Positions 20,318-37,677 of a stretch of DNA of 42,041 nucleotides are shown piece by piece; the stretch's first letter is position 1, and every line of letters begins with the position of its first letter. The notes beneath the pieces were generated by a model that saw only the letters and a program-made list of their open reading frames with translations, had not been told where the DNA came from and did not search any database. The stretch lies in assembly GCA_001004885.1 (NCBI GenBank), contig LCRX01000006.1, positions 99,079 through 141,119 on the forward strand. Direction: 5' to 3'. This DNA is from Candidatus Magasanikbacteria bacterium GW2011_GWA2_56_11. GTDB taxonomy: Bacteria > Patescibacteriota > Patescibacteriia > Magasanikbacterales > UBA922. The position numbers were made by a program, and so were the translations under genes.

Positions 20318-20337
20318 ATGTGGCTGAGTAAAATTAG

Positions 20338-20501
20338 TGAACTGATAGTAAGTTATCAGCAATTATCTTCTAAGTCGAGCCGAAACATACAGACTGATTT
20401 TCGCGGCACCAATGTCTGAGCCTGTAAGAGCGAGTTTTGGTGCCGTAAAAATCAGTCTGTATGTTTCGGCGAAAAAAAAGGGGAAACTCGCTGTGAGTTC
20501 A
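20338..20501 (+). repeat. R1 structured repeat, copy 1
   Basis: A 164-base element matching 37489-37648. Order: small hairpin CTGATA/TATCAG (20342-20359), then a 34-base arm (20379-20412) pairing with 20437-20470 with one mismatch and one G-U pair, loop 20413-20436, then a purine tract and AAACTCGCT (20484-20492) that is perfectly complementary to AGCGAGTTT (20429-20437) in the loop. TGAACT and AGTTCA flank the copy as short inverted ends. It lies in the leader region of the DUF5671 gene. Confidence 0.9.
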
Positions 20502-20512
20502 GTTATGTAGTT

Positions 20513-20541
20513 AGTATAGCTTGTTTCGGGATCAAAGCCAA
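20513..20541 (-). promoter_or_regulatory. Promoter of the DUF5671 unit
   Basis: On the minus strand, -35 TTGGCT (20536-20541), 17-base spacer, -10 TATACT (20513-20518). Transcription from about 20506 runs through R1 copy 1 before reaching the ATG at 20317. Confidence 0.55.
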
Positions 20542-20629
20542 TGCCCTGGCCAGCGACTGTCCGCCGCAGCTTGAACCGGCGAGCGGAAAAAATTGCAAAC
20601 GGCCGCCGGACTATTTTGTTGGCCGCGAA

Positions 20630-20673
20630 CAGACGAATAAAAACGACCCCGAGAGGCCGTTTTTATTCGTCTG
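20630..20673 (-). terminator. Terminator of the KGG protein gene
   Basis: CAGACGAATAAAAACG (20630-20645) pairs with 20658-20673, and an inner CC/GG extension follows. The 3' arm on the minus strand holds a T5 run. It begins 3 bases after the stop codon. Confidence 0.75.
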
Positions 20674-20675
20674 GT

Positions 20676-20951
20676 TTACGTTCCCTGGGTTCCGGTCTCC
20701 CGCCGGCGTTCGGCGGCCCGCCGGCCGCCTTTTTGGCCGGCCCGTCTGGCCTCCTCCGAGGTAAATTCATGGGCTGTGCCCCGGGCATGCGCCGCCCGGC
20801 CGCCCAGGCTGGCGATACGCCTCTGCATGGATGGATCCATGCTGGCAAACCCACGCCGGCTGCGCCGTTTGCGCCGGTCTTCCTCCCCCGGACGCTCGGT
20901 TGAACCCCGGGCTTCACGTGGCGTCTGTTCCATATAGTTTAGAGAATACAT
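20676..20951 (-). CDS. KGG-repeat (con-10/YmdF-like) stress protein
   Basis: A 91-residue highly charged protein. It contains GFASMDPSMQRRIASLGGRA, AHARGTAHEF and TSEEARRAGQKGGR, the tandem KGG-type motifs of the stress-induced acidophilic repeat family (YciG, YmdF, fungal con-10). The N-terminal 30 residues (ETPREARGSTERPGEEDRRKRR region) are basic and probably disordered. The family is induced by desiccation, stationary phase or osmotic stress; its molecular role is not established. A start at the seventh codon (20933) is equally possible. Confidence 0.85.
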   Translation of the reverse strand: MYSLNYMEQTPREARGSTERPGEEDRRKRRSRRGFASMDPSMQRRIASLGGRAAHARGTAHEFTSEEARRAGQKGGRRAAERRRETGTQGT

Positions 20952-21125
20952 AAGTGAATGCTTGAGGCCGCTTGGCGTGTCAGCCTCTATTTTCGTGTTT
21001 TTTGCCCCAAGCTCGCTGGCAGCGATGAATAAAGATCAATGCTGTTGACCAAGCATTCGCCCGCAGTCCGGGTGTTGACATATATGACGAGCCGATGTTG
21101 GGCATCTTACCGTCCGGTTTGTCCG

Positions 21126-22550
21126 TTACCGGACCGGATGAGAGAATAGCTGCAGGTTATCGAGCTGCTGTGTCCGTCCGAATAGCCTTTTAATCTCTGT
21201 TTCCCGGTTTTCGTAAGACCAATAAGGCCGAGAGCGGATGATAAGATGGCCGTCTTCGGCCGTTAATCCGGCGAGCGATTCCAGCCGACGCGGCTCATGC
21301 CAGATACCGGCCCAGCCGCGGGGATTGTAGCGGGGATCGTTGATATTGTAGAGGACTACGCGTTCGCGGCCAAAATAATAGGCTGCTATGACGTACTCAA
21401 ACGGGTCGAGAACATATACCGGCCCGTTATCCGCCGACAAAGTTGATTTGAGAATCCGATAGCCGTCCGGCACCTCTGGCTTTACTGTTAGCGCGAGCAC
21501 GGCCGCGTAGGCGCAGAGAAACGCGCCCGCGATCCACCACCGCGTCTCGGCGAGCCAGATACCAAAAATTACGCTGAGCGCCGCGCCACTCCCGATAAGA
21601 TAGCGGGCAACGAAATAATTTTCCCCGTAAAGCGACAAAGCGTACGCGGCTCCAATTGTGCCCGCGGTATGGACAAAAAGTATATTTTGCGGCAGGGAGC
21701 GTCGGCTCAGGCGCAGAAAAGCACCCATGACCGCGCCGAAAATCAGGGCCGCGGCCGCGGCCACGCTTAGCGGATCGGCCGCGGCCACGCGATTGGCCGG
21801 CGGCATGCCGAGCGAGAGTTCGCCCGGCGGCAGGCCGATGGCGAAAATAGCCAGAGTTTTGCAGAGATCAAAAAAAGTCGCCGGCGCGATCCAGCCAATG
21901 CGCGCTTCGCGGTCCAAAAATTGGATAATGAACCAGGGTAACCACGGCGCCAAGATAAGTCCCGCCGTGAGTACGCCGGGCAAAAACGTGGATAGCGGCC
22001 GCAGCCGGCGATAACAAACCGCGCCCGCGAGGGCGTACGCCGCCAAGGAGATGAAAGAGGCATAATGAGTGAGGAGAGAGAGGCCGGCGGCTACGCCCCA
22101 GGTGATAATGTCTCCAGCGCGCCGAGTCATGGCAGCCCGTATAAAACTGGCCAATGTAAGCAGATGGAGCAGACCCAAAAGGGCGTACATGCGGGCTTCT
22201 TGCGCGTAAACAATCAAAAAAGGCGAAATCGCGGCGAGCGAACCCGCGTACCAGGCCGCCCGGCGCCCGGCCGCAATTTTGGCCACGTACATGACAAGCG
22301 CCACGATTAGTGTCCCGGCCAGGGCGGAAAGCAGCCGCAAAGACACGGGAGAATAACCCAGAAACCAGCCAAAGGGTTTGGCTACTAGGTAGTAAAGAGG
22401 CGGATGCGTGTCTTCAATAATGAGACGCATCATTTCTCCGGGCGCAGTTCCAAGAATGAGTCCGCTGACAGCCTCGTCATACCAGAAATCTCTTTTTCCC
22501 AAATTATAAAAACGTCCGGCGGCGGCTCCAGCCAGGATTAAGGCGTACAC
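21126..22550 (-). CDS. GT-C membrane glycosyltransferase (PMT/ArnT-like)
   Basis: A 474-residue multi-pass protein. The N-terminal loop carries RDFWYDEAVSGL, with the D-E catalytic pair of the GT39/GT83 type, then EDTHPPLYYLVAKPF, the conserved HPP loop. At least ten hydrophobic helices follow, and a soluble tail from about residue 365 (PDGYRILKSTLSADNGPVYVLDPFEYVIAAYYFG). Such enzymes transfer a sugar from a polyprenyl phosphate carrier to an outer acceptor. The start is a GTG without a ribosome site; the frame stays open about 60 bases upstream without a standard start. The end overlaps a GC-rich hairpin at 21110-21135. Confidence 0.85.
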   Translation of the reverse strand: MYALILAGAAAGRFYNLGKRDFWYDEAVSGLILGTAPGEMMRLIIEDTHPPLYYLVAKPFGWFLGYSPVSLRLLSALAGTLIVALVMYVAKIAAGRRAAWYAGSLAAISPFLIVYAQEARMYALLGLLHLLTLASFIRAAMTRRAGDIITWGVAAGLSLLTHYASFISLAAYALAGAVCYRRLRPLSTFLPGVLTAGLILAPWLPWFIIQFLDREARIGWIAPATFFDLCKTLAIFAIGLPPGELSLGMPPANRVAAADPLSVAAAAALIFGAVMGAFLRLSRRSLPQNILFVHTAGTIGAAYALSLYGENYFVARYLIGSGAALSVIFGIWLAETRWWIAGAFLCAYAAVLALTVKPEVPDGYRILKSTLSADNGPVYVLDPFEYVIAAYYFGRERVVLYNINDPRYNPRGWAGIWHEPRRLESLAGLTAEDGHLIIRSRPYWSYENRETEIKRLFGRTQQLDNLQLFSHPVR

Positions 22551-22877
22551 AGCGGCAGATGGATTCAGTTTGAAACGGGAAAAAAATGGCGTAGTAGATA
22601 GTTCAGGGCCAGGCGAAAATCAATCTTGCGCCGGGCCGTAATTTAGCCTGTGGTTTTTTGTTTGTCCCGCTGTTTGAGGCAATATTCAGGTACTCTAGCT
22701 GGTGGTTTCGTTTCGGCGCAATGGTGTGGACAAGTTAGAAGTTTTAGTTTCGATGGCATAATCACTAACTGACGAGCTGCCCGGTAGCGCGAACATCGGG
22801 CGCGGGGTCGAAACATCGGGCAAAGACAGCCGCTATTTATCGGCCGCAAAGTTTTCGGGTTATCCACCGGCAAACCC
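22551..22877. other. Intergenic region with little visible content
   Basis: Between the GT-C gene and the promoter at 22878. Apart from a weak 38-residue minus-strand ORF at 22643-22759, I see no gene, hairpin or repeat. Confidence 0.4.
22643..22759 (-). CDS. Doubtful 38-aa cysteine/histidine-bearing ORF
   Basis: The ATG at 22759 opens MPSKLKLLTCPHHCAETKPP followed by ARVPEYCLKQRDKQKTTG. Three cysteines and two histidines in a basic peptide could form a small zinc site. There is no ribosome site and no recognisable relative. Coding status is uncertain. Confidence 0.27.
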   Translation of the reverse strand: MPSKLKLLTCPHHCAETKPPARVPEYCLKQRDKQKTTG

Positions 22878-22907
22878 TTGACGCGTTAATCTAGAGATAC
22901 CTATAGT
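22878..22907 (+). promoter_or_regulatory. Promoter of the double-GT2 gene
   Basis: -35 TTGACG (22878-22883), 18-base spacer, -10 TATAGT (22902-22907). The start point would be near 22914. Confidence 0.6.
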
Positions 22908-22913
22908 GCCTAT

Positions 22914-23202
22914 AGAGCTTACAGTCGTGTGTCTGGGTGAAAGTTTTTGAATTTTATTTTAATTTATTATTCCTGTGTTCACCGCTTTCGTACCCGCGGC
23001 GGCGCCAAGACTCGCAGAGAGCCTGGCCCCGGCTGCCTGTTTCTAGGTACTTCTGGCCACAGCCGGACTATCATGCCGGCGGCACAGGTTCCTTCTCCCT
23101 GCCGCCAAATAGGCGGACCGCACCTAGTCTAAGCTCCACAGCGTGGTGTATTTTTGTGTACCCGGGCGATGTGTTACCGCCCGGTCCTGTAAACGAACCT
23201 TT
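22914..23202 (+). other. Long structured 5' leader
   Basis: About 290 untranslated bases separate the promoter from the ATG at 23203. Hairpins visible include CCGGCTG (about 23028) with CAGCCGG (about 23060), and CCGGGCG with CGCCCGG about 20-45 bases before the ATG, close enough to affect ribosome access. I recognise no known riboswitch class. Confidence 0.4.
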
Positions 23203-24753
23203 ATGAGACAACAACATGTCGCCGTTATTCTTCCGACTTACAATGAAAGGGAAAACATCTCGAGCTTGATTCCCGCTATAGTGAAAAATTTATCAACTTT
23301 GGACAATATCCGGCTGTCGATCGTAGTGGTGGACGATCAATCGCCGGACGGCACCGATCAGGCGGTCATAGAGTACATGCGGCAGTATTCGGGTCTATAT
23401 TTAATCCGCGGACGCAAACAGGGCCTTGGCGTCGCCTACCGCCGGGGCTTTACCTACGCTCTCGAGACTCTCCGGGCCGATTTGCTGGTGGAAATGGATG
23501 CCGACTGGTCGCATAATCCGGCCGACCTGCCGCGGATCATCAGCGCCGCCGATGGCGCGCGGACTTTCGTAATCGGGTCTCGCTATGTGCCTGGCGGCGC
23601 CACGGCGCGGGATTGGCCGCGCTATCGGCTGCTCAACAGCCTGGCCGCCAATTGGTGCGCCCGTTATATCGCCGGGTTGTCCCCTGTCAGGGATTGCACC
23701 AGCGGTTTTCGGGCTGTCTCGGCGGGAGTGCTGAAGCAAATCAGCTGGCCGCGAATTTCAGCCCGCGGGTATTCGTTTCAGATTCAACTTTTGGCCGAGG
23801 CCCGTCGCCAGGCGGCGAATATCAAAGAAGTCCCGATCCAATTCGCGGAACGACAGCAGGGAACCTCCAAATTAGGTTGGCGCGACATTCTGGAATTCGG
23901 CCTCAACTCGGTAAAAATCAGATTCACCACGGCTGCCAGCCGGCAGCCGCTGTACATAACCGCCGGAGTTTTACTGCTGGCTTTGGCGGCCGCGGCCTTA
24001 ACCGCCGACTTTTTTACTTTGGGAACCGCCGGTTTTACGCTCTTTTTCCTGGCGACGTTCCTCATCACGGCCCAGAGTCTGTTGACTCTTTTCGGGATGA
24101 TTTACGCTTGGGAAGACCCGGCGCGAGTGGAGCGCAATAATTCGCCGCGCGTTTTTCGGCCGCCGCACTATTCGTTCACCGCGATTCTGCCGGCTTACCA
24201 TGAAGAAACGGTGATCGCCGACACCATCCGGGCCTTGGCGGCCGTTGAATACCCGGCGGACAAAAAAGAGGTCCTGATCGTATGCCGTTACGACGATGCC
24301 GGCACTATCGCGGCGGTCAAGTCTACTTTGCGGGAGATCGGGGCGCCGTGGATCCGGCTCCTGGTTCCGGCTTATCTGCCCAAAAATAAGCCGGACAAAC
24401 TCAATTACGCCTTGGGCCAGGCGGAACACGATGTAGTCTGTATTTTTGATGCCGAGGATAACCCGCATCCGGATATATTTAACATCGTCAATACCGTCAT
24501 GTGCCGCGATGGCGCCGATATCGTGCAATCAGGAGTCCAGCTGGTTAATTTCCGCTCCAACTGGTTCTCGACCCTTAATGTTTTGGAGTATTTTTTTTGG
24601 TTCAAGTCAGTGCTTCACTTTTTTGCCAGCCAACAAGTAATACCTCTCGGCGGCAACCAAAGTAACTTCGCCTATAAGCCCAGAGTACAGAGGCAGCTTT
24701 ATCCTTGCGCTTTCCTCGGTGAAAACGCCTACATAACCGCCTTTAATCTTTAA
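23203..24753 (+). CDS. Double GT2 synthase (DPM1-like + cellulose-synthase-like), broken at its 3' end
   Basis: 516 residues from MRQQHVAVILPTYNERENIS. An in-frame ATG at 23143 adds only non-conserved sequence. Domain 1 (1-225) is dolichol-phosphate-mannose-synthase-like: VVVDDQSPDGTD, EMDADWSHNPADLP, IGSRYVPGG, DCTSGFRA. Two or three membrane helices follow (LYITAGVLLLALAAAALTA, LFFLATFLITAQSLLTLFGM). Domain 2 is a second GT2 with AILPAYHEETVI and IFDAEDNPHPDIF. After HFFASQQVIPLGGN the reading becomes unlike the family and stops, and the TED and Q-x-x-R-W motifs expected next are missing. The family's C-terminal membrane part continues in another frame from 24737. The gene therefore appears to have lost about 60 codons and the frame; the second catalytic site is probably dead. 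Confidence 0.8.
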   Translation: MRQQHVAVILPTYNERENISSLIPAIVKNLSTLDNIRLSIVVVDDQSPDGTDQAVIEYMRQYSGLYLIRGRKQGLGVAYRRGFTYALETLRADLLVEMDADWSHNPADLPRIISAADGARTFVIGSRYVPGGATARDWPRYRLLNSLAANWCARYIAGLSPVRDCTSGFRAVSAGVLKQISWPRISARGYSFQIQLLAEARRQAANIKEVPIQFAERQQGTSKLGWRDILEFGLNSVKIRFTTAASRQPLYITAGVLLLALAAAALTADFFTLGTAGFTLFFLATFLITAQSLLTLFGMIYAWEDPARVERNNSPRVFRPPHYSFTAILPAYHEETVIADTIRALAAVEYPADKKEVLIVCRYDDAGTIAAVKSTLREIGAPWIRLLVPAYLPKNKPDKLNYALGQAEHDVVCIFDAEDNPHPDIFNIVNTVMCRDGADIVQSGVQLVNFRSNWFSTLNVLEYFFWFKSVLHFFASQQVIPLGGNQSNFAYKPRVQRQLYPCAFLGENAYITAFNL

Positions 24754-25189
24754 AAAGCGCGAATGGCAAAAGCTGCCGACCCTGACGCAGCGCTGGCTGG
24801 TGGCCTACATACTGCTCTGGCCGATTGCGCAGACGAGCATGTTTCTCTATGTCTCCTTTTCGCTTGTCATGATGCTCTTCATTAAATTGCCCGTGATCCT
24901 GGCGATGACGTCTATTCTGCCCTTGTACGTGCTGGTTTTGCATTTGGTGATAATGAATGTGGGATTGTATGAGTTTACCAGGAAATACGGCGTTCGCTAC
25001 CCTTTTTGGATGCCTTTTAAAGTGGTAATCACGTTTATACCGTTTCAGATAATGCTCGGCCTGAGCGCGCTGCGGGCCGTATACCGTGAGTTCACGGCCG
25101 AACGCGGTTGGGAGAAAACCGAGCATACCAACGTACACCGCCCGCCTCTCAAAACGGCCACGCTTAAATTGCGCCGGCCGGTGAGCTGA
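24737..25189 (+). pseudogene. Detached C-terminal membrane part of the double GT2 synthase
   Basis: The frame opens after a TAA at 24734-24736 and reads PLIFKKREWQKLPTLTQRWL, then membrane helices (VAYILLWPIAQTSMFLYVSF, LPLYVLVLHLVIMNVGLY, FKVVITFIPFQIMLGLSALR) and RAVYREFTAERGWEKTEHTN. This matches the usual C-terminal end of BcsA/NdvC-like GT2 enzymes (REWxKLPTLxQRW, then two helices, then REFxxxRGWEKTxH). An ATG at 24800 could give an independent 129-residue product. I treat it as the 3' remnant of the upstream gene; a sequencing or assembly error is the other explanation. Confidence 0.75.
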
Positions 25190-25226
25190 CTGCGGGCGGC
25201 GAGTAATATATTTTACCAATGAGAGT

Positions 25227-27944
25227 ATGTTAACGCGCATTATCTCCAATCTAAAATCACGGCGCCATCTGGCTCTTATTATCGGTCTGTGCGCGCTGTC
25301 ACTCGGCGTCAACAGCATCAATCTGTTCGGTTTTCCGTCGTACAGAGAGGACGAGGGGACCTACGTGGCGCAAGCTTGGTCCGTCGTAAACCTGGGGCAG
25401 CTGGCGCCGTATACGTACTGGTACGATCACGCGCCGGCCGGCTGGCTGATACTGGCTCTGTGGCATGTTTTGACCGGCGGGTTTTTTATCGCCGGCCTGG
25501 CTGTCAACTCGGGCAGGATATTTATGGTCGTGCTCCAGGTCATAGCCACGCTGTTGGTGTACGTCATCGCTTGGCGCACCACCGGGCGGCGGGCCGCCGC
25601 CTTTATTTCGGCCGTCCTTTTCTCCCTTACGCCTCTGGCCATCATCTCGCATCGCCGGGTGCTTTTGGATAATATCATGGTAGTCTGGTTTCTGGCTTCG
25701 GTGTATTTCTTGACGAAGACGCCCAAGATAAGAAATTTCATTTTTTCGGCCGTAGCGTTCGCCATCGCGGTTTTGACCAAGGAACCGGCCCTGTTCTTCT
25801 TGCCGCCCTTGGTTTACCTCGCCTGGCGCGCCTGCGATAAGACGTCGCGGCATTTTGTTTTTGTGATTTGGCTGTCGATTATTTTTTTAGCCGTCTCGAT
25901 CTACCCTCTGTTGGCCATGCTCAAGGGTGAATTTTTCCCCAGCGGTACCTGGCTCGGCGGCCAGGAACCGCACGTCAGTCTGATAGAGGCCGTGGCCTTC
26001 CAGGCCAGCCGCGAGGGCGGATTCCTGCTTTCTTCCGACAGCACTTTCCAGTTCGCACTCAAGAACACCTGGATCGTGTACGGCGGTATCCCCCTCAGCT
26101 TGGCAGTGGTCGCTGTTTTTATCTCCCTCATTCGGCCGGCCAACTACTGGCAGCGGGGGTTTTCGCTGCTTTCGTTGTCTTACGTCTTGTTTATCCTGAA
26201 AGGCGAGATCCTGGACTGGTACATTATTCCGCTTATCGCCACCTCGGCCCTCAATCTCTCGGGCCTGTATTTAACTGTTCTTAACTGGGGCCGGCGGCTT
26301 AAAATCAGGGAACGCTGGACCGAGTTCGGTTTCGTGACTTCGTTTGTCGCCATCATCATTTATTCGTTGGCGGGCCAGGCCCATATTTTTACTGTTGACC
26401 AGACCAGCAACCAGCGGCAAGCTGTCGAGTGGATACGCCAGCATCTCGGCCGGGAATCGGTGGCGCTGATTGATAACTATCCTTTTGTGGATTTAAATCC
26501 CAGTTTGGGCAAGGATATTACCGAGGCCAATATCCACTATTACTGGAAAGCCGACACCGACCCGCAAATTACCCATGGAGTGCTTAATGATGACTGGCAG
26601 ACGATTGATTACCTGCTCATCACGCCGGCGATTAAGCGTACCCTCGACATTACAGATCTGGATTTGGTGGAGACGGCTTATGATAATTCTTTTGTGGTCA
26701 AGCGTTTCGCCAATACCGATCTCAGCCTGCTCGATTATCCGGTCGACATCCGCGAGGTTAATAACCGCGACGGAACGCTGAGCACCAGCTGGCGCTATTA
26801 CCGGGACCGGTTTATCCTGCCGGAGGGTCGGGTGGTAGATCCGACTGCCGGCAGCGAAACCACCTCCGAAGGCCAATCATACGCTTTGTTGCGTTCGGTC
26901 TGGGAGAACGACCGGGCTACCTTTGACCAGGTACTCGCCTGGACTGAGTCTGCTCTCTCCAATCCCGAAACCGGCCTGTTCGCCTGGCGCTACGGACAGT
27001 CCGCGCCAGGCGGCTGGGGCGTGCTCGATCCGGCCAGCGCCAGCGATGCCGACGAGGATGTCGCCCTGGCCCTGCTATTTGCCTCCAGGCGGTGGGGCGA
27101 CGACAGTTACGCCAAACGGGCACAGCAGCTGCTCGCCGATATTTGGGACCAGGAGGTCGTGGAGATTGACGGCCGCCTGCACCTGCTCGCCGGCACCCAA
27201 GCCAGGCGGGGCGATGGATACCTGGTGAATCCGTCTTATTTCGCGCCGGCCCACTACCGGATTTTCGCCGAAGCCGATACTCAACATAATTGGTACCGCC
27301 TGGCGGCCGACAGCTATCGGATAATACGAGAATTGGAGAATCTGCCCACAGGGGGGCAGATGACCAATCTTTTGCCCAACTGGGTGGTGGTCGATAAAAA
27401 CGGCGCTTACCGGCCGCTCAGCCCCGGCCGTTCGTCCCCTTCGGACCAGTACGGCTATGATTCCTTTCGCCTGATGTGGCGCCTGGCTCTCGACTATGTC
27501 TGGTTTGACGCCGAGGAGGCCAAGAATTATCTCGGCGAAGTCTTTCCTTTTTTCCGCGACGAATGGAATCGTCACGGAAAAATTTATGCCGTCTATTCGA
27601 CCGCGGGCGTCAACCAGGTGCCTTATGACGATATCAGTACCTACGCCGGAGCCATGTCCATTTTCTCGGTTATCGATCCGGATCTGGCCATAGAGCTCTA
27701 CGCTAAAAGTTTTTGGTCCGAGTATCAGCGGGGCTATTGGGGCGACGGCGACAATTATTACAACCAGAATTGGGGTTGGTTCGCGACAGCTCTTTATGCC
27801 CGCGATTTACCCAATTTGTGGCAGAACCCGGACGGCAAGGGATCGCTGGCGCGCACCGAGGGCCGGCGGGATGATTTAGCGGGTAAAAAGACAGCCCCGG
27901 GCGGGCCGGGGCTGTCTTTCAAATTAGAATCTGACTCTCATTAG
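25227..27944 (+). CDS. Fusion of a GT39-type membrane glycosyltransferase with a GH8-like glycosidase
   Basis: A 905-residue protein. Residues 1-390 are a polytopic PMT/ArnT-like enzyme: YREDEGTYVAQA (E41, D42, E43) in the first outer loop, DHAPAGWLI, and about ten helices. Residues 390-520 are a linker with GRESVALIDNYPF. Residues 535-835 resemble GH8 endoglucanases (BcsZ type): TTSEGQSYALLRSVW with E548 at the acid position, ASDADEDVALALLFA (D607-D611), and SDQYGYDSFRLMWRLALD with D745 at the base position. The helix would place the GH8 part outside the cell. The joint suggests a protein that builds and trims a beta-glucan-like polymer. The final 20-25 residues are read through a terminator hairpin, so the true stop may have been lost. 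Confidence 0.85.
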   Translation: MLTRIISNLKSRRHLALIIGLCALSLGVNSINLFGFPSYREDEGTYVAQAWSVVNLGQLAPYTYWYDHAPAGWLILALWHVLTGGFFIAGLAVNSGRIFMVVLQVIATLLVYVIAWRTTGRRAAAFISAVLFSLTPLAIISHRRVLLDNIMVVWFLASVYFLTKTPKIRNFIFSAVAFAIAVLTKEPALFFLPPLVYLAWRACDKTSRHFVFVIWLSIIFLAVSIYPLLAMLKGEFFPSGTWLGGQEPHVSLIEAVAFQASREGGFLLSSDSTFQFALKNTWIVYGGIPLSLAVVAVFISLIRPANYWQRGFSLLSLSYVLFILKGEILDWYIIPLIATSALNLSGLYLTVLNWGRRLKIRERWTEFGFVTSFVAIIIYSLAGQAHIFTVDQTSNQRQAVEWIRQHLGRESVALIDNYPFVDLNPSLGKDITEANIHYYWKADTDPQITHGVLNDDWQTIDYLLITPAIKRTLDITDLDLVETAYDNSFVVKRFANTDLSLLDYPVDIREVNNRDGTLSTSWRYYRDRFILPEGRVVDPTAGSETTSEGQSYALLRSVWENDRATFDQVLAWTESALSNPETGLFAWRYGQSAPGGWGVLDPASASDADEDVALALLFASRRWGDDSYAKRAQQLLADIWDQEVVEIDGRLHLLAGTQARRGDGYLVNPSYFAPAHYRIFAEADTQHNWYRLAADSYRIIRELENLPTGGQMTNLLPNWVVVDKNGAYRPLSPGRSSPSDQYGYDSFRLMWRLALDYVWFDAEEAKNYLGEVFPFFRDEWNRHGKIYAVYSTAGVNQVPYDDISTYAGAMSIFSVIDPDLAIELYAKSFWSEYQRGYWGDGDNYYNQNWGWFATALYARDLPNLWQNPDGKGSLARTEGRRDDLAGKKTAPGGPGLSFKLESDSH
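27887..27919. terminator. Bidirectional terminator inside the end of the GT39-GH8 ORF
   Basis: AAAGACAGCCCCGG (27887-27900) and CCGGGGCTGTCTTT (27906-27919) pair perfectly around GCGGG. T-runs follow on both strands. It lies before the plus-strand stop (27942-27944) and after the GH44 stop on the minus strand. Confidence 0.85.
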
Positions 27945-27947
27945 GGC

Positions 27948-30365: not shown

Positions 30366-30455
30366 GGGATAAATGGGTTACCTGTCTTTTGACTGGCGAT
30401 GTAAAAATTAGTTTGAGTAAACGCGAACCCCGACCTCATGAATTCGCGAGCAGAC

Positions 30456-30461
30456 AGTATA
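30456..30461 (-). promoter_or_regulatory. Candidate -10 of the GH44 gene
   Basis: TATACT on the minus strand, about 90 bases upstream of the start codon. The -35 region (CTCGTC) is poor, so an activator may be needed. Confidence 0.35.
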
Positions 30462-30534
30462 ACACAGGGCTTCTTTTTGACGAGCTCAGCCTTGGACAAA
30501 TTTAACCGCAGAGTTTGGAACGGCTGGCCAAAGC

Positions 30535-30557
30535 AAAAATCCGGCTCTCTGGCCGGA
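30535..30557 (-). terminator. Terminator of the methyltransferase gene
   Basis: TCCGGC and GCCGGA (30540-30545 and 30552-30557) pair around a 6-base loop, followed by T5 on the minus strand (30535-30539). Confidence 0.7.
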
Positions 30558-30593
30558 CGGAAGAAAAAAACTTATCCACAGCCTTGACGCCTT

Positions 30594-31349
30594 TCAAATC
30601 TGGCGGGCCTCGAAAAACAAGAAAAGCGGGATTTCTTTGCGGGCCGTCTCGAGAGCCAAGAAAGTTTTTCCTTTAGGCCCGCGGCGATGCGATATCCACT
30701 CTTCCAGCCTGGTAACCGCCAGGCCTGATTTATGCAGGGCCTTAAAATAGCTTTGCAGAGGACGGTGGAAAGAAATGGTGTAAGGACTGTTATTTTCGCC
30801 CGGGTGCGCGATAATTTTTATTTTCGCATCCGACAGGTAGCGGTCCACGCGGCGGGACTGGATTTTTTTATCGTCGGTCCATTCCCAGCCGCTGGCCCGC
30901 GGGATACGGAAGGCGGGGTGATTCAAGACGACCGCGAGCCGGCCGTCCGGTTTGAGCACACGGGCCGCTTCCGCGACTGTTCCGCCGAGATCTTCAATAT
31001 TCTGCAGGGCGAGTATTATGGTTACGGTATCGAAGGTTCCGGCGGCGAACATGGTCAGCTTATCTGCCGAGGCCAGGCGGTAGTCAGCGTTTTTGTCTCC
31101 GCGGGTCCGCGCCTGGGCAATCATCTCCCGGCTGGCGTCGATGCCGGTAATGAGCGCGCCGGAATTGGCCATGGCGCGGGTGAAAAAACCGGTACCGCAG
31201 CCGATGTCCAGCCAGCGTTCGCCCCGCTTCGGGGGCAAAAGGCGTAATAGATGCGGCAAAATAACCTGGCTGTGGTAAGTGTCTGCCGTTTCCTCCACCA
31301 GCTCTCCGTACCACCCGGCGACTTCTTCCCACGAGGTGTCTTTTTTCAT
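30594..31349 (-). CDS. Class I SAM-dependent methyltransferase
   Basis: A 251-residue UbiE/COQ5-like methyltransferase. Motif I is WLDIGCGTGFFTRAM (about 46-60), followed by LITGIDASREMIAQAR, then FDTVTIILALQNIEDL (motif II/post II) and LKPDGRLAVVLNHPAFRIPR (motif III). The C-terminal part (SFHRPLQSYFKALHKSGLAV) is typical for small-molecule enzymes in which a lid covers the substrate. The substrate cannot be deduced. It starts 12 bases after a 68-aa ORF in the same direction. Confidence 0.88.
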   Translation of the reverse strand: MKKDTSWEEVAGWYGELVEETADTYHSQVILPHLLRLLPPKRGERWLDIGCGTGFFTRAMANSGALITGIDASREMIAQARTRGDKNADYRLASADKLTMFAAGTFDTVTIILALQNIEDLGGTVAEAARVLKPDGRLAVVLNHPAFRIPRASGWEWTDDKKIQSRRVDRYLSDAKIKIIAHPGENNSPYTISFHRPLQSYFKALHKSGLAVTRLEEWISHRRGPKGKTFLALETARKEIPLFLFFEARQI

Positions 31350-31361
31350 ACACAGAAAAAT

Positions 31362-31568
31362 TTATTTGTAGACGCTTATGAAGTCCGCCTCGCCCGGCTC
31401 CGGACTTTCCGCCGGCTGTGCGTTTTCTGGCAGCGCAAAATTGCTGTAAGTATATGGGTTTATTTGTTGTTGGTAAAGGCCGGTCCCGTTATCAGGGTTA
31501 TAAGCTGGGCCGGGTTTTGGCCGGTCGGGCGCGAGTACGGAAAACAATTTGCCGCTTTTTACTTTCAC
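31362..31568 (-). CDS. Small orphan protein, 68 aa
   Basis: Not recognised. The start is a GTG at 31568. The product is basic at the N-terminus (MKVKSGKLFSVLAP) and rich in Pro, Asn, Tyr and Gln in the middle (YNPDNGTGLYQQQINPYTYS), with an acidic tail (SPEPGEADFISVYK). It is probably disordered. Its stop is 12 bases before the methyltransferase start, so the two may be cotranscribed. No signal peptide or membrane segment. Confidence 0.5.
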   Translation of the reverse strand: MKVKSGKLFSVLAPDRPKPGPAYNPDNGTGLYQQQINPYTYSNFALPENAQPAESPEPGEADFISVYK

Positions 31569-31733
31569 GTCCCGCGGTCCCGGGCGCCGGGTCGTCTTTG
31601 AAAAAAGTTATTCACACTCAGCTATTAGGCGAGTTGTCCGCACTGTCCGGCAAAAAAAGCCCGCCAGAAGCAAAGTTATTTGTTTGTCGGTTTGAGGCGC
31701 GGGGAAACAGGCATTTTTTTGGGCCCGAAATGG

Positions 31734-31761
31734 TTGACAGTCCCCTATCCTCAGGTATAGT
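31734..31761 (+). promoter_or_regulatory. Promoter of the TIKI-like gene
   Basis: -35 TTGACA (31734-31739), 16-base spacer, -10 TATAGT (31756-31761). The leader would be about 43 bases. Confidence 0.65.
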
Positions 31762-31810
31762 AGGAGCTTCGAATTCTGTCTGTCGAGTTCTCTAACCCAT
31801 CATTATTTCT

Positions 31811-33196
31811 ATGCCGATATACCCCGTAAGGAAGATCGTCCGCGCGCTTAACACTGCCAAGCGCTCAGCCGAATTTATCTTTAGGCGCAGCCAGGTCTCT
31901 CAGCTTTTTCCCCGACAGCGGGAACGATTGGGTAGAACACTTATTTTCTTAGCGGCCATAGCAGCCGGCGGTCTCATCGGGATCTGGCCGGACAATGCGG
32001 GCCGCGTTTCCAAGCTTTCTGCCGAGTCGCTGTCACATTTAGTCGCGTTTCCGGCCAGTGCCGGCGCAGAGGTGGACGCCCAGGCGCTTGATCAGCTGGC
32101 TAATCCGGACTTTTACTCCGGTTTGCCTGTGGGCAAGGTGGAACGGCAAGCGAGTGCCGACGCGTGGGGTACGGTCATTTTTCTGCCGCAGTACCATCGC
32201 CACCCTGGCAGCCAGGTGGAAGATCCGCGCAACGACAAGGGTGAAAGTACCCAGAGGGAGACCTACAAAATTCTGGAAAAAATACTGGCCAGCAAGGTGG
32301 TTGAGTTAGTCATGGTGGAAGGCGAACTGGCCGGGCCGGTACCCGAAGAAAAACGTGTTCCGGTCTCCGATCTGATGGAGAGGCGGCGTCAATTCGCGTC
32401 TGCCTACGAGAGGTTTGCCGCCGCCATCGGCCAGTATCCGGCAGATTCCGGTTTGCCGGATAAAATTATGCGCGCCGGAAAGGATAACATCGCCCGTCTC
32501 GACCGCGAACTGATGCTCCTGGGCGCGCCGTATGTGCTTTGGGCCGAAAATAAGCCTATTAAGCTCGTGGGCGGCGAGGTGGAGGCTACGCGCGAAGCCA
32601 GTAAGGAGATCGTGCGCGAACGCCTGTACCTAGAGGACCGGATGGCGTCATTGGCCCGTCCGGTAAGGAAAGTCAGTCTCAGCCGGCGGTTGCCGGTGGA
32701 AGGCCTGTTAAATATGAAAGTCCTAGAGCGCCTGATTGCCAAAAGAGCGCCAGTCCGGACGGCGAAAGTTTCGCCCGCGGACGACCTGGCGCGGCTGGGC
32801 GCCGAGGCCCGGAAGCGTAATCTGCCCGCGGTAGCCAGAGCAGCCGAGGATTTGGCCGCGGCCTGGAAAGGTCCGGACAAGAAGTCTGGCGCCGCCTCGT
32901 TGCCCTCGCGTGCGAACAATCCCTATCGCGGTATCTCGAACGTTTCCGCGCTTCGGGCGAAGCTCAAGGAGAATGACCGAAAAATAACCGCTACTATTAT
33001 TGAACGCCGCAATCGCGAAACGGCTGACAATCTAGTCGCGGCTATGAAAGAGAACGGACAGAATGTCGCCGGGCTGCAGTTCGGCGCCGGCCACGAGGCC
33101 GGGTTGGAGACAGAGCTCTTGTCGCGGGGGTTGAATGTGATTACAGTGACGCCGGAAACAGTGTCCAAAGGCAAACTCCGCGGGGAGCTTGACTGA
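31811..33196 (+). CDS. Membrane-anchored protein, possibly TIKI/TraB-ChaN-like
   Basis: A 461-residue protein. A basic N-terminus and one membrane segment (TLIFLAAIAAGGLIGIWP, about 43-60) anchor an outer domain. That domain opens with WGTVIFLPQYHRHPGS and a later VVELVMVEGELAGPV, and ends with ERRNRETADNLVAAMKENGQ and VAGLQFGAGHEAGLETELLS before GLNVITVTPE. A strand-then-H motif, a strand-then-E motif, an R-N/D helix and a late strand-GAGH motif are the hallmarks of the TIKI superfamily (TraB/PrgY, ChaN, EreA-like). Members are metal-dependent hydrolases or peptidase-like. The link is by motif order only. The middle (about 185-370) is charged and helical. Confidence 0.6.
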   Translation: MPIYPVRKIVRALNTAKRSAEFIFRRSQVSQLFPRQRERLGRTLIFLAAIAAGGLIGIWPDNAGRVSKLSAESLSHLVAFPASAGAEVDAQALDQLANPDFYSGLPVGKVERQASADAWGTVIFLPQYHRHPGSQVEDPRNDKGESTQRETYKILEKILASKVVELVMVEGELAGPVPEEKRVPVSDLMERRRQFASAYERFAAAIGQYPADSGLPDKIMRAGKDNIARLDRELMLLGAPYVLWAENKPIKLVGGEVEATREASKEIVRERLYLEDRMASLARPVRKVSLSRRLPVEGLLNMKVLERLIAKRAPVRTAKVSPADDLARLGAEARKRNLPAVARAAEDLAAAWKGPDKKSGAASLPSRANNPYRGISNVSALRAKLKENDRKITATIIERRNRETADNLVAAMKENGQNVAGLQFGAGHEAGLETELLSRGLNVITVTPETVSKGKLRGELD

Positions 33197-33236
33197 CCGT
33201 CGGGTAAACGGCGCGACGGCAAAAAAGCAATCACCA

Positions 33237-33261
33237 AAAACGGCGCCACTGGCGCCGTTTT
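33237..33261. terminator. Bidirectional terminator
   Basis: AAAACGGCGCC (33237-33247) and GGCGCCGTTTT (33251-33261) pair perfectly around ACT. It lies between the convergent TIKI-like and LysM-repeat genes. Confidence 0.85.
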
Positions 33262-33282
33262 GAGCTGTCCCGCGCAGGGCCT

Positions 33283-34059
33283 TTATTGCCGGTTGTCAAA
33301 GACTTCCTGCAGGATGATCAAATCTTTCAGATCCGTGTCGTCGCCGTCATTAAACAACTCCGAGAGCACGATTAGGTCCCCCAGATTGGAGTCGCCTAAT
33401 ATGTTGCCCGTGCCTACGCCTCCGCCGTCAGCGGGCAGTCTCAGCCGCTGTCCCGGGAAGATAACGTCCGGATCCTCTATGTCATTGAGTTCCGCTATCT
33501 CGTCGAAACGGCTCGCGTCGCCCAGGAATTCCTCGGCAATGCCGCTTAACGTGTCGCCGGACTCAACCACCACTGTGCGCCGTCCCCCGATGACTCCGCT
33601 CGTCAGTCCGTCATTGAAGAGCGCCTCGAGGATGATGAGATCTCCGATGTCAGTGCCGTCTCCCCCGTCGCCCAGATTTAAGCCGCTGCCGTCCTCCCCG
33701 TCATTGAAGAGCGCCTCGAGGATGATGAGATCTCCCAGGTTCGACTGGCCGCCTCCGCTGCCGCCGAGTACGCCGCCGTCATCTCCCATTAGCGCCTCGA
33801 GGACTACCAAGTCTTCCAGGTTTATGTCGCCACCCAGATCCAGTCCGTTGTCGCCGTTGAACACGCCGTCTTCGTCGTCAAACAGCGCCGAGATAACGAA
33901 GAGATCGCTCAAGTTGCTACTGCCACCCAGCAAGCCGCTCATGTCAGTCTCCTCCCGGGCCGCGCCCGCGTTCGGGACAGAGACGACAAAAGTCATCACA
34001 GCCGCGGTGGTGAGGCCGAGCAAAGCGGCACTGACTTTTTTAAAGGTTTCGCGTAGCAT
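33283..34059 (-). CDS. Secreted LysM protein with six copies of a DL[IV][IV]LxxLF-type repeat
   Basis: 258 residues from MLRETFKKVSAALLG; a longer frame to 34242 only reads the R2 repeat backwards. A signal peptide (1-34, ending NAGA) precedes four acidic repeats at about 48-63, 79-94, 106-121 and 136-151, such as SNLGDLIILEALFNDG and TDIGDLIILEALFNDG. A LysM domain follows (about 162-208: VESGDTLSGIAEEFLG and PGQRLRLP), then two more repeats (224-239, 242-257). The Gly/Asp-rich spacers could bind calcium. LysM suggests attachment to peptidoglycan. Repeats 3 and 4 share 38 identical bases (33608-33645, 33698-33735), so they arose by recent duplication. It lies 10 bases after the sigma factor stop and may be its target or partner. 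Confidence 0.85.
   Translation of the reverse strand: MLRETFKKVSAALLGLTTAAVMTFVVSVPNAGAAREETDMSGLLGGSSNLSDLFVISALFDDEDGVFNGDNGLDLGGDINLEDLVVLEALMGDDGGVLGGSGGGQSNLGDLIILEALFNDGEDGSGLNLGDGGDGTDIGDLIILEALFNDGLTSGVIGGRRTVVVESGDTLSGIAEEFLGDASRFDEIAELNDIEDPDVIFPGQRLRLPADGGGVGTGNILGDSNLGDLIVLSELFNDGDDTDLKDLIILQEVFDNRQ
33608..33735 (-). repeat. Tandem coding repeat (90-base period)
   Basis: A 38-base sequence occurs identically at 33608-33645 and 33698-33735. It encodes the core of repeats 3 and 4 of the LysM protein. The exact identity against the divergence of the other repeats implies recent duplication or conversion. Confidence 0.9.
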
Positions 34060-34069
34060 ATATTTGCGG

Positions 34070-34774
34070 TTAGAGTGTTTGAAAACTAGAACCCATCTCA
34101 AAAATAATTCCGAGACAATTTTGGCCTGCTTCGAGCGAAAATTGTCCGGGTTGAGGAGGCATAGTGGTACTATGGCGACGAGAGCCGGACAATTTGCAGC
34201 CGGAACAGGTGCAAAATTGAGCCGGAAGGGTGTCCAGTTCATAGCTCAAAGCCGACTTAGCCCGGCGTAAGAGCGTTTTGACCGTGTTGAGCGGCAGACC
34301 GAGTTTGCCCGCTATCTCATCGTAAGTCAGACCCTGCCAGTAATAAAGCCTCAGTACGATGCGATACTTCGAAGGCAAATGGTTGAGCCCGTTATGCAGG
34401 TCTATGCGGCGTTCGATTTCCGGACCGTTCAGGTTTTCGCCGTCATGACCCGCGGACAGGGCCGCGTTTTTTCTGGCCTGCTTTCCGGCCTGCTCGCGCT
34501 GCTGTCGGCGCAGCCAATCGTAGACCGTCCGCTTCACAATAGTAAAAAGCCAGGTAGAAAATCTTTTTTGGTCATCATAGCTGGACAGGGCCTGGTAAAG
34601 TTTGATAAAAGATTCCTGCGCCAAATCAGCGGCATCAGACTCATTGCCGACGAAACGGAATATATAATGGCGCACGGCTCTGTCGTAGGCCCCCATTATC
34701 TGGCCAAAGGCTTCCAGGTCTCCCTCGCGCGCGCGGCGAATAAGGGCGTCTGGTACGCTAACGTGTAACGGCAT
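34070..34774 (-). CDS. ECF-type sigma factor with a repeat-derived C-terminus
   Basis: 234 residues. Region 2 (about 10-90) holds YDRAVRHYIFRFVGNESDAA, DLAQESFIKLYQALSSYD and FSTWLFTIVKRTVYDWLRR. Region 4 (about 125-180) holds LNHLPSKYRIVLRLYYWQGL, TYDEIAGKLGLPLNTVKTLL and RRAKSALSYEL. No sigma 3 domain, hence ECF type. From about residue 184 to the end (PAQFCTCSGCKLSGSRRHST onward) the sequence is encoded by R2 copy B read on the minus strand. The sigma fold ends just before it, so the protein is probably functional with a foreign 51-residue tail. No recognisable anti-sigma factor is adjacent; the secreted repeat protein follows at once. Confidence 0.9.
   Translation of the reverse strand: MPLHVSVPDALIRRAREGDLEAFGQIMGAYDRAVRHYIFRFVGNESDAADLAQESFIKLYQALSSYDDQKRFSTWLFTIVKRTVYDWLRRQQREQAGKQARKNAALSAGHDGENLNGPEIERRIDLHNGLNHLPSKYRIVLRLYYWQGLTYDEIAGKLGLPLNTVKTLLRRAKSALSYELDTLPAQFCTCSGCKLSGSRRHSTTMPPQPGQFSLEAGQNCLGIIFEMGSSFQTL
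34087..34228 (+). repeat. R2 palindromic repeat, copy B
   Basis: 142 bases, differing from 17361-17503 at only a few positions (around CATCTC/CATCCC and TTTTGGCCTGCTT/TTTTGTGCCTGTTT). Same palindromic centre CATAGT-GGT-ACTATG (34160-34174). It forms the 3' end of the sigma factor gene on the opposite strand. Confidence 0.9.
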
Positions 34775-34887
34775 AGTGTAGGCGGTTGCACGATTTTTGA
34801 CGGCGCTGCCATGAATGACTTACGCCAGGCATCAGTCTTCCCGTCAGTTTTTTCGCGCGCCTCTGGCGGCGCGGCGTAAACAAACAA

Positions 34888-34912
34888 GCGGAGGACGCGC
34901 CTCCGCCTTTTT
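34888..34912. terminator. Terminator after the GT2 gene
   Basis: GCGGAGG (34888-34894) and CCTCCGC (34900-34906) pair around ACGCG. A T5 run follows on the plus strand, and a TTGTTTGTTT tract on the minus strand. The minus-strand GT2 gene (stop 34934) is the likely user. Confidence 0.6.
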
Positions 34913-34933
34913 ACTCCGCGTCTCCGGCCGGGA

Positions 34934-35617
34934 TTAGCGCCGAAAGCGGTGCTTGAGTATCACCGCTACCGCGGCAATTCCGTCATGAAAACGGATTTTT
35001 TTACCCTCCGCGAATGTCCGGGGATGATAACTGATCGGGATTTCACGAATAACGCTCCCCTGCCGGAGCAGCTTGGCCGTTACTTCCTCGCAAAAAGAAA
35101 ACCTGTCGGATTCAACCTGCAAACACCGCAGAGCCGCGGCGTTAAACAGTTTGTAGCAAGTGTTGACGTCTGTCAGCCGGCTGCCGAAGAGCAGATTCAT
35201 CAGCGCTGTGATTAGTCGCCCGCCGTAATAGTAGCGCCGGCTGGAGCGCGAGTTGGGCTGCAGGTTGCGCGAACCGTAAACAGCGTCGGCCCGGCTCTCC
35301 TGGAGCGCGCGCAGCAGCCGGCCGTAATCGGCCGGATCATATTCGAGATCCGCGTCTTGGACGATGATCCAGCGGCCGGTGGCCCGCTCCAGGCCGCTCC
35401 GGACAGCCGCGCCCTTACCCCGGTTTTTTTCGTGCAGTACCACGGTGTGCCGGCCGGAAAGCTGGCGCAGGTACTCGCGCGAGCCGTCGGTGGAACCGTC
35501 GTCAACGAGGATGATCTCTTTGACGACGGGAATTTTCGCCTCCTCCACGCGCCGAATTATCTCGGCGATCGTCGCCAGTTCGTTATAAACCGGAATGATG
35601 ACGGACAGTTTTTCCAT
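34934..35617 (-). CDS. GT2 glycosyltransferase, DPM1/DpmA-like
   Basis: A 227-residue soluble GT-A enzyme. Seen are SVIIPVYNELATIAEIIRRV (1-24), EIILVDDGSTDGSREYL, VVLHEKNRGKGAAVRSGLE, the metal-binding IIVQDADLEYDPADYGRLL and VYGSRNL. The C-terminal SYHPRTFAEGKKIRFHDGIA is typical of the family that makes polyprenyl-phosphate sugars. Such donors would feed the GT-C enzymes in the window. It follows the 587-aa membrane protein gene by about 70 bases in the same direction. Confidence 0.9.
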   Translation of the reverse strand: MEKLSVIIPVYNELATIAEIIRRVEEAKIPVVKEIILVDDGSTDGSREYLRQLSGRHTVVLHEKNRGKGAAVRSGLERATGRWIIVQDADLEYDPADYGRLLRALQESRADAVYGSRNLQPNSRSSRRYYYGGRLITALMNLLFGSRLTDVNTCYKLFNAAALRCLQVESDRFSFCEEVTAKLLRQGSVIREIPISYHPRTFAEGKKIRFHDGIAAVAVILKHRFRR

Positions 35618-35690
35618 AGTGTGCCTCTCGACCTACCCCCGAAATAATTATGAGCCGTTTGGAGGCGGAAGTTATTTTTGGGAGCAGCCG

Positions 35691-37274
35691 CTAGAGTTCC
35701 CGGATGTCAAAACGGCTCCGGGGAATTTCGTATTCGCCGATCAGTGCCGCCTGGCCGGGAGTGCGGCGGGCAAAAATAATGAAAGAGTCGTCAACAAATA
35801 CCGGCGCCCAAGCCGGATCGTCTAACCGGCGGACAATAAAGGGAATTGCCGGGCCGGTCTTTTTTTTGAATGAAAGCAAAATGGTTTGAAAGTCGTAGTC
35901 TTTCAGCGCTGTCTCCCAGACGGCCTCATCCTGGCGGATTGGGCGGTAAGTGTTTCGCAGAAAATCTTCGGGGTAGGCTTCGGGCCGGTTGTCCACAAAA
36001 GGGCGCCATTGGGGGAAGAGATAATAAATGACGTATCCGCCGCTGTCAAAGTCGTGGAATAGCGGACCGGCAGCGTTTGATTGCGCCAGGAACAACGCCG
36101 CCTCCCGGTGGCCGTCGTTGTTGAGACCCACACCCCAGGCTTGTCCGGCAGCCGGCAGCCGGCCCCAGTTCAGGGCTGCCGTGAGAACCACCACCGCCAG
36201 GCCGCCGGCCGCAAACTCCCGCCGCCGCAGCGGCCGGGCCAGACGCCGGGCGAGACTCCCCGCCGTATCCCGCAGGGCCCAGGCCAAGAGGGGCAGCATG
36301 ATGAGGCCGTACATGGTGAGGTTGCGTATCATTTGCCAGCCGGTCGCGCTAAAAAAAGCGGCGATGAGGAAAAATACCAACGGCCAGCCGCGCGCGGCAA
36401 AAATTTTATTGAGCGCGTAAAGCAGCCAAAAAACAACCAGGCTAATGACAAAAGTTTTCAGCCGCGCCGAGTCGAGCCCGGCTGCGGCCGCTTCGTGTAG
36501 CGGCAGCATTTCATTAACAGGCAGTCCAAAGTGGCTCATTATTTGCAGCGGATAGAGATACATTCTCGCTCCAAACGGATTGATCAGACCTCCAGCCAAG
36601 GCCCCGGCCAAATACAGCGAGACGGCCCGGATTTTTTCTCGCGACCGTTCGGTTATCGCCGCCGCCAGGAACAGCCCGATCAGGGCAAACCCGTAAATAT
36701 AATAGATATGCAGGTTGACCCACAGACCGAAAAGGGGCGCCGCTGTCCATAGGGTCCAGGCTTTTGCCCTGGCTTGGTGCCAGGCAAGCAGGACGGAAAA
36801 GACAATACCGAGGAACAAATAGCTAAACAGTTCTGGCCTCACTTCCCGTCGGTCAGCTATGAGCGGCATGAGAAAAAAAGCGGCGGCGGCGCTGGGCCAA
36901 AAGCCTGCTTGGCGCCCGCCGGCCAGGAAAAAAAACAGAAAAGCGGCTGAACTAAGAAGCGCGCCCGCTATGGTGAGCGCGTTAAATCCGCCCGCGAGCC
37001 AGACCAGATAAAAAAATAACCCGCTGGCCCAATGATGATTGACGAAAGGGGCGTCGGGGAAGGTGTAGGAATAATAATTGCTGTCCAAAAGACTCCGGAA
37101 CGACTCCCCTGCCCGCACCGAGGCGAGGATTATCTCTCCGTTTTTGAGGTGCCGGCCCAGATCTCCGTGCGTGAGATCAACCGGGCGCACCAGCAAAAAA
37201 CCGTACCAGGCGAACAGAAAAACAAAGGCGGCTAGTTTGTACGGCTGAAGTTTGGCGGGGAAAGAAAAAAACAT
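35691..37274 (-). CDS. Large polytopic membrane protein, likely GT-C glycosyltransferase
   Basis: From the ATG at 37274 the product is 527 residues (MFFSFPAKLQPYKLAAFVFL). An in-frame start at 37454 adds 60 non-conserved residues and its codon overlaps a plus-strand promoter, so I prefer 37274. About ten to twelve helices follow a first outer loop with DLTHGDLGRHLKNGE and FVNHHWASGLFFYLVWLAGG. The soluble tail has HDFDSGGYVIYYLFPQWRPF and VDNRPEAYPEDFL. The layout is that of GT-C-like proteins, with acids in loop 1, but no named family is certain. Confidence 0.75.
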   Translation of the reverse strand: MFFSFPAKLQPYKLAAFVFLFAWYGFLLVRPVDLTHGDLGRHLKNGEIILASVRAGESFRSLLDSNYYSYTFPDAPFVNHHWASGLFFYLVWLAGGFNALTIAGALLSSAAFLFFFLAGGRQAGFWPSAAAAFFLMPLIADRREVRPELFSYLFLGIVFSVLLAWHQARAKAWTLWTAAPLFGLWVNLHIYYIYGFALIGLFLAAAITERSREKIRAVSLYLAGALAGGLINPFGARMYLYPLQIMSHFGLPVNEMLPLHEAAAAGLDSARLKTFVISLVVFWLLYALNKIFAARGWPLVFFLIAAFFSATGWQMIRNLTMYGLIMLPLLAWALRDTAGSLARRLARPLRRREFAAGGLAVVVLTAALNWGRLPAAGQAWGVGLNNDGHREAALFLAQSNAAGPLFHDFDSGGYVIYYLFPQWRPFVDNRPEAYPEDFLRNTYRPIRQDEAVWETALKDYDFQTILLSFKKKTGPAIPFIVRRLDDPAWAPVFVDDSFIIFARRTPGQAALIGEYEIPRSRFDIREL

Positions 37275-37447
37275 ATCCGCGGGTGTCCCGGCGATCGATT
37301 CTTGACGGATAGTATGCCCGCCGTCTTTGGCGTTGTCAATCGCGGTTCCGGCCGGCTGCCGGCGCCAGTTGCCGGCAGGCAGGGAGTGCGTTATGAGCTT
37401 GTTTGCGTGGCTAAACGGCCATAAACTAAAATCGTTACTGTTTCCCA

Positions 37448-37476
37448 TTGACAAAACAGGCTGAATACCCTAGAAT
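37448..37476 (+). promoter_or_regulatory. Promoter of the GT4 gene
   Basis: -35 TTGACA (37448-37453), 17-base spacer, -10 TAGAAT (37471-37476). The start near 37483 lies immediately before R1 copy 2, which would be the mRNA leader. Confidence 0.7.
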
Positions 37477-37488
37477 TGACAGATTATA

Positions 37489-37648
37489 GAATTGATAGTG
37501 AGTTATCAGCAATTCTATTCTCTAAGTCGAGCCGAAACATAGACTGATTTTCACGGCACCAATGTCTGAGCCTATTAAGAGCGAGTTTTGGTGCCGTGAA
37601 AATCAGTCTATGTTTGAGGCGAAAAGGGGGAAACTCGCTGTGAGTTCA
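37489..37648 (+). repeat. R1 structured repeat, copy 2
   Basis: 160 bases matching 20338-20501. The 32-base arm (37531-37562) pairs with 37588-37620, with one bulge near the base. Compared with copy 1, the loss of CA in one arm is matched by loss of TG in the other, and the imperfect CG/TA step becomes a perfect CA/TG. AGCGAGTTT (37580-37588) in the loop is again complementary to AAACTCGCT (37631-37639). It ends 29 bases before the GT4 start codon. Confidence 0.9.
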
Positions 37649-37677
37649 TAAACATTCGCGAACCCAGATATCTCTCC

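Follow-up and report, generated by a model that had tools for sequence, protein, structure and literature searches.

We report here that R1, a short dispersed DNA element of Candidatus Magasanikbacteria bacterium GW2011_GWA2_56_11, is a non-autonomous transposable element, specifically a miniature inverted-repeat transposable element (MITE), and that most of its copies lie at a fixed distance behind sigma-A-type promoters. Two copies are located in the stretch of 42,041 nucleotides analyzed here (contig LCRX01000006.1, positions 99,079 to 141,119; hereafter the window), where an earlier note, made from the letters of the window, had first drawn attention to them. R1 is likely moved by a transposase acting in trans, with insertion probably directed to the downstream border of the melted part of promoters.

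R1 is a transposable element

The window's own genome (G000; 1.25 Mb in 23 contigs, 99% complete) contains 43 two-ended and 2 truncated R1 copies, about 45 in total, where the earlier note had seen a pair. Further copies, the absence of which would have refuted the earlier note, are thus present, and their arms covary. The copies were gathered using copy 1 of the window as the query (about 40 largely complete copies), a second query (one additional copy) and an end-based pattern, which returned further full-length copies and the two truncated ones; the count of 43 includes the copy at C2:16511, the 3' end of which gave way to adjoining sequence. R1 is 151 to 162 nt long, its central part forms a long hairpin, and no conserved open reading frame (ORF) was seen in the alignment of the copies, leaving R1 without coding capacity. 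The element is bounded by imperfect 16-bp terminal inverted repeats, GAACTCACAGCGAGTT and GAACTGATAGTGAGTT. Nearly all copies begin with GAACTC and finish with AGTTC, in the sense opposite to that of the earlier note. With two mismatches allowed, the end pattern GAACTNAYAGYGAGTT matches the genome 89 times, compared to 2 matches of a reversed control. Borders are sharp, with no sequence in common between the flanks of different copies, and pairwise identity among copies has a median of 0.89 (range 0.74 to 0.97).

An exact 3-bp direct repeat flanks 27 of the 38 intact copies, and 30 of 43 once later copies are included. The repeat is never longer than 3 bp, and unrelated registers give 0 to 1 of 38. 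A is enriched at its first position and T at its third, and TAT, CAC and GTT were also observed. Inverted ends together with a duplication of fixed length are characteristic of transposases of the cut-and-paste type. One R1 copy (C9:6361-6680) holds another dispersed element, R2, inside. We count the transposition of R1 as established. The earlier note had offered a non-autonomous mobile element as one of its readings, which is borne out by the 3-bp target duplication and the terminal inverted repeats.

Two R1 copies, L229 (C4:70527) and L230 (C8:14456), are broken off at the same base (...GGTGCCGTAAAAAT). They have the start GAACTCACAGTGAGTTC in common and unrelated flanks, and may constitute a shorter mobile variant.

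Most R1 copies are positioned at a fixed distance behind promoters

Each R1 copy was scanned for -10 boxes outward from both ends, with a score at every distance. In about 30 of the 45 copies a sigma-A-type promoter is present upstream, with its -10 box ending 10 to 14 nt (mode 12) before the element. Strong -10 boxes at this distance were found on the promoter-proximal side of 24 of 45 copies and on the other side of 4. Matches peak at 11, 12 and 13 nt (6, 13 and 3 copies, respectively, against 0.15 expected at each), and the enrichment is highly significant by comparison to a local control, the region 25 to 150 nt upstream of the same copies (P ~3e-30). Upstream -35 boxes are mostly separated by spacers of 17 nt (P ~3e-11), and the extended -10 TG is frequent, because of which we consider these promoters real. 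Taking transcription to start 7 nt after the -10 box, a predicted start, R1 would be located at about +5 and its 3-bp target would thus correspond to +4 to +6.

R1 keeps a fixed distance to the -10 box, whereas the start codon lies anywhere between 0 and more than 200 nt away, and in some copies (L015, L017, L021, L032 and L232) the target duplication overlaps the start codon itself. The same end of R1 faces the promoter in most copies; in copy 2 of the window (L008) and in L039 the other end does so, again at 12 nt. Where a promoter is clear, R1 sits between it and a gene. The genes behind R1, called as simple ORFs, are functionally unrelated and include those for DUF5671, GT4, nucleotidyl transferase, iPGM, acylphosphatase, CBS domain, epimerase and DUF4015 proteins.

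Distant relatives of R1, which we identified with a covariance model, are present in three other genera (G042, G060 and G085) and have kept their ends. A -10 box lies at 11 to 14 nt in seven of nine distant relatives (P ~9e-8, at a lower threshold than for the own genome), and three carry a 3-bp duplication. No R1 copy was detectable by BLAST in 45 other genomes of the same family. A phylum-wide covariance search scored 7 candidates per genome and is uninformative for weak relatives. An origin of R1 from a virus or plasmid was considered and rejected: no DNA match was obtained in phages or plasmids, the R1 ends are absent from viral contigs, and the conserved hairpin tip described below is nearly absent there.

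The two copies in the window

Both copies reported in the earlier note are present, at approximately the positions given there; some ends were one base off, and the exact limits are 20339-20500 and 37489-37647. Copy 1 (162 nt; minus strand, which is the sense of the leader as read from the DUF5671 promoter) is flanked by the target duplication AGT at 20336-20338 and 20501-20503. Sequence and end pattern identify its promoter-proximal inverted repeat as GAACTCACAGCGAGTT (20485-20500, minus strand) and its promoter-distal one as GAACTGATAGTAAGTT (20339-20354, plus strand). The main hairpin (20379-20470) has the 34-nt arms described earlier (20379-20412 and 20437-20470; 94% match) and carries the conserved tip at 20409-20440 on the minus strand. 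The -10 box TATACT (20513-20518) lies 12 nt from the element, and a -35 box, TTGGCT (20536-20541), precedes it with a 17-nt spacer, both on the minus strand. The DUF5671 gene (PF18920; 19823-20314, minus strand) follows, with its ATG about 21 nt past the element.

Copy 2 (159 nt) is assigned to the minus strand by the same leader-sense convention, and its clear promoter is at the opposite end. Based on the end pattern, its inverted repeats are GAATTGATAGTGAGTT (37489-37504, plus strand) and GAACTCACAGCGAGTT (37632-37647, minus strand), and the duplication ATA is found at 37486-37488 and 37648-37650. Its main hairpin (37535-37615) has perfect arms of 28 bp (37535-37562 and 37588-37615) plus a 3-bp extension, and its tip is at 37559-37591 on the minus strand. 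The GT4 glycosyltransferase gene (PF00534; 37678-38898, plus strand), the leader of which holds copy 2, is preceded by a plus-strand promoter with the -35 box TTGACA (37448-37453), a 17-nt spacer and the -10 box TAGAAT (37471-37476), 12 nt from the element. The earlier observation that both copies lie in gene leaders just behind promoters was the most important one of the note; it applies at the same distance to each, and it is the rule for most copies.

Of the differences between the two hairpins noticed before, the CA/TG difference is real and symmetric; among the aligned copies it is a paired 2-bp insertion private to copy 1. The main stem has several variable pairs, the CG/TA versus CA/TG step among them, and 6 of its pairs have changes on both sides.

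Hairpin pairing and the pseudoknot

R1 has folding z-scores of -9 to -12 on either strand. In its main stem, 94.7% of cells are paired, compared to 31 to 41% in slid versions, and the 6 pairs with two-sided changes amount to 24 cells, compared to 13 in shuffles. Departures from Watson-Crick pairing comprise 21 GU and 22 AC mismatches with no strand bias. The equal numbers give no sign of selection as RNA on one strand, which should favor GU. Since palindromes can keep their arms matched through template switching, the insertion found in each arm of copy 1, like other paired changes, is no proof of selection on an RNA.

The earlier note had also proposed a conserved pseudoknot. The loop 9-mer AGCGAGTTT is indeed complementary to the downstream AAACTCGCT in both window copies, but among 36 copies the helix has no two-sided change in any of its 8 pairs. 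It is not formed in the relatives L075, L083 and L086, and its partner is lost in five R1 copies with a loop inverted relative to the ends (L036, L039, L231, L232 and L233). The target duplication is intact in four of these five. Two of the loop-inverted copies have a loop variant in common, which also occurs in normal orientation (L034). The small end hairpins show no covariation, and in 25 of 36 copies one pair is missing from the hairpin at the 3' end. A search of Rfam yielded no gathering-level match for R1; microRNA hairpins and purD appeared as weak matches below the cut-off, and the microRNA matches reflect the perfect hairpin only.

The conserved hairpin tip

The most conserved part of R1 is the tip of the hairpin, CCAAAACTC-GC...GC-TCAGACATTGG. 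Variants shared among copies fall in the tip less often than expected (3 against 12; P = 0.002). Private variants show no such avoidance (9 observed, 11.5 expected), and a direct contrast of the two classes is no more than suggestive (P = 0.07). The tip thus seems to matter for R1 copies that multiply, and less for copies already in place. The motif AGCGAGTT occurs in the inner half of the R1 ends and, inverted, in the tip; at a guess from these positions, it may be a repeated protein-binding site.

The tip is also found in palindromic repeats of other phyla. With one genome per species, its pattern has at least 118 matches, about 5 being estimated by chance, in Clostridia, Deltaproteobacteria, Burkholderiales, Nitrospirae, Saprospiraceae, Campylobacterales and other Patescibacteria. 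In 81 distinct cases (among L110-L228) the tip CAAAACTC-GC..GC-TCAnACAKTKG tops long hairpins with unrelated arms (mean alignment about 54 positions). Similar to R1, these hairpins contain about equal numbers of GU and AC mismatches (83 and 97). Arm mismatches in this wider class are strongly pyrimidine-pyrimidine on the tip strand.

One tip-bearing MITE of about 240 nt, from a group of proteobacterial metagenome-assembled genomes, has the ends GTAACTATTCAGC (L120, L133, L143, L162, L182, L206 and L221). In this family 7 of the 10 copies keeping both ends are flanked by duplications, of 8 bp in six and of 9 bp in one. Based on these different ends and duplications, the same tip sits in elements of different transposition chemistry. 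Clustering of 492 neighboring ORFs revealed no recurring gene beside the tip hairpins of other phyla, and the tip had no match in E. coli or plasmids. The tip class has no Rfam family, and literature on the tip sequence and on MITEs of the candidate phyla radiation (CPR) gave nothing relevant. In Lachnospira sp. (L174, 870-1309), three tip hairpins are arranged in tandem at a spacing of about 205 bp, with one inverted copy 5 kb away.

Discussion

In the mechanism that we propose, a transposase supplied in trans would cut at the 16-bp ends GAACT...AGTTC, and the ends would be joined to the target with a 3-nt stagger, giving rise to the 3-bp direct repeat. The insertion machinery would pick the downstream edge of the melted promoter, either by contact with RNA polymerase or by a preference for opened DNA. 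Once inserted, R1 would give the mRNA a long 5'-terminal hairpin, with a predicted folding energy of about -60 kcal/mol, and it would be likely to affect its host genes. The tip is probably required for R1 to multiply, and not for a function in the leader of the host gene.

Several points weigh against this mechanism. The four transposase families searched for, Y1_Tnp, DDE_Tnp_1, rve and DDE_3, are all absent from a genome that is 99% complete. No recognizable -10 box is present at either end of about a third of the R1 copies, and the transcription starts are predicted from sequence. The spacing to promoters is a correlation, from which we infer targeting by insertion, and the position of R1 could partly reflect selection after insertion.

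Selection could in principle account for the positions by itself, if R1 inserted regardless of promoters and copies were kept just behind transcription starts, where the hairpin might be harmless or stabilize the mRNA. Copies with clear promoters are indeed found downstream of the promoter and ahead of the gene, in most cases in the same orientation, and a 5' hairpin can plausibly protect an mRNA. We nevertheless consider this explanation unlikely, because on selection alone almost every random insertion, few of which would reach the exact spot, would have to be lost, and positions would have to be sorted with a one-base accuracy that leader function does not require. The offset from the -10 box is fixed to within 1 to 2 nt even in long leaders, copy 2 and L039 hold it in the opposite orientation, and private mutations strike the tip at a nearly neutral rate. 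It is far less probable still that R1 acts as a structured RNA regulating some 45 transcription units in cis, as a leader switch or antiterminator, and was copied by an unknown route. The position of R1 at the start of leaders, its preserved pairing and the conserved tip would agree with such a role, and a structured RNA was the other reading in the earlier note. Against it stand the 3-bp target duplications and inverted ends, the strand-symmetric mismatches in both R1 and the wider tip class, the unrelated downstream genes, the loop-inverted copies, the lack of an Rfam family, and the end hairpins and pseudoknot without covariation.

The earlier note had named the IS200/IS605 type for a possible mobile element, and we regard it as highly improbable that R1 is a single-stranded DNA element of this kind, that is, a palindrome-associated transposable element (PATE) of IS200/IS605 or a REP/RAYT-type repeat moved by a Y1 HUH transposase. 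Such elements are rich in hairpins and non-autonomous, and R1 similarly has a strong internal hairpin and, in some copies, hairpins near its ends. IS200/IS605 elements, however, make no target duplication, and the same holds for REP/RAYT; the exact duplication of R1 and its inverted ends, the absence of Y1_Tnp (PF01797) from the genome in a search with positive controls, and the pair missing from most 3' end hairpins all argue against this type.

Among cut-and-paste elements, those of the IS5 type (ISL2, IS1031) and IS3 type make AT-rich 3-bp duplications and have ends of about 16 bp, as does R1; in ISL2 and IS1031 the duplication is ANT or TNA. R1 differs in its GAACT ends, and no autonomous relative was found. 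The own genome lacks DDE_Tnp_1 (PF01609; the search did not extend to the sister models PF13586, PF13612 and PF13359) and also rve (PF00665), the transposase domain of IS3, IS30 and IS481 types. R1 resembles the bacterial MITEs Correia/NEMIS, RUP and ERIC in being short, non-coding, intergenic and self-folding, with inverted ends and a target duplication. The well-known bacterial MITEs mostly use TA targets, whereas the 3-bp duplication of R1 varies in sequence and the element is found at a fixed distance from promoters, on their downstream side. To our knowledge, insertion at a set base-pair distance behind transcription starts is without example among bacterial transposons, and our search of the literature on promoter-targeted insertion found none. 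The yeast retrotransposon Ty3 similarly inserts within a few nucleotides of transcription starts, but it is a eukaryotic retroelement directed by Pol III factors and R1 is a bacterial non-coding DNA element, so that the likeness is one of analogy and not of kinship.

The GTAACTATTCAGC-ended repeats of other phyla (WFRP/WFRT) have a long hairpin with the tip CAAAACTC-GC..GC-TCAnACA in common with R1, whereas their ends are unrelated and their duplications, of 8 or once 9 bp, are as in IS66-type elements. It is conceivable, although we hold it somewhat more doubtful than not, that a bacterial DNA transposition system is directed to about +5 of sigma-A promoters by recognizing the open complex of RNA polymerase and promoter, or the downstream fork of this complex, with the tip serving as the recognition site of a widespread, undescribed helper common to elements of different end types across phyla.

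If promoter-targeted insertion of R1 is real, its copies mark promoters and could serve to locate +5 sites in uncultivable organisms. Such targeting would also illustrate how a very small, gene-dense genome can accommodate a multiplying element without damage to coding sequence: R1 would land downstream of a promoter and ahead of the start codon, and each insertion would provide a gene with a new 5' leader. The tip common across phyla would offer a concrete sequence with which to seek the helper protein.

Other repeats in the window

R2, the element found inside one R1 copy, is a second dispersed family with about 20 places in the genome, two of them in the window (17363-17506 and 34089-34230). 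It has the ends GAACCYACTYCCAAAAATAA and is flanked by TA, often within CTAG; some copies lie right behind terminator hairpins. R2 looks like a TA-target MITE. The window also contains two perfect inverted repeats: one of 31 bp with a 3-nt loop is intergenic (19243-19307), and one of 22 bp with a 2-nt loop (9139-9184) lies right past the end of the ORF at 6488-9133.

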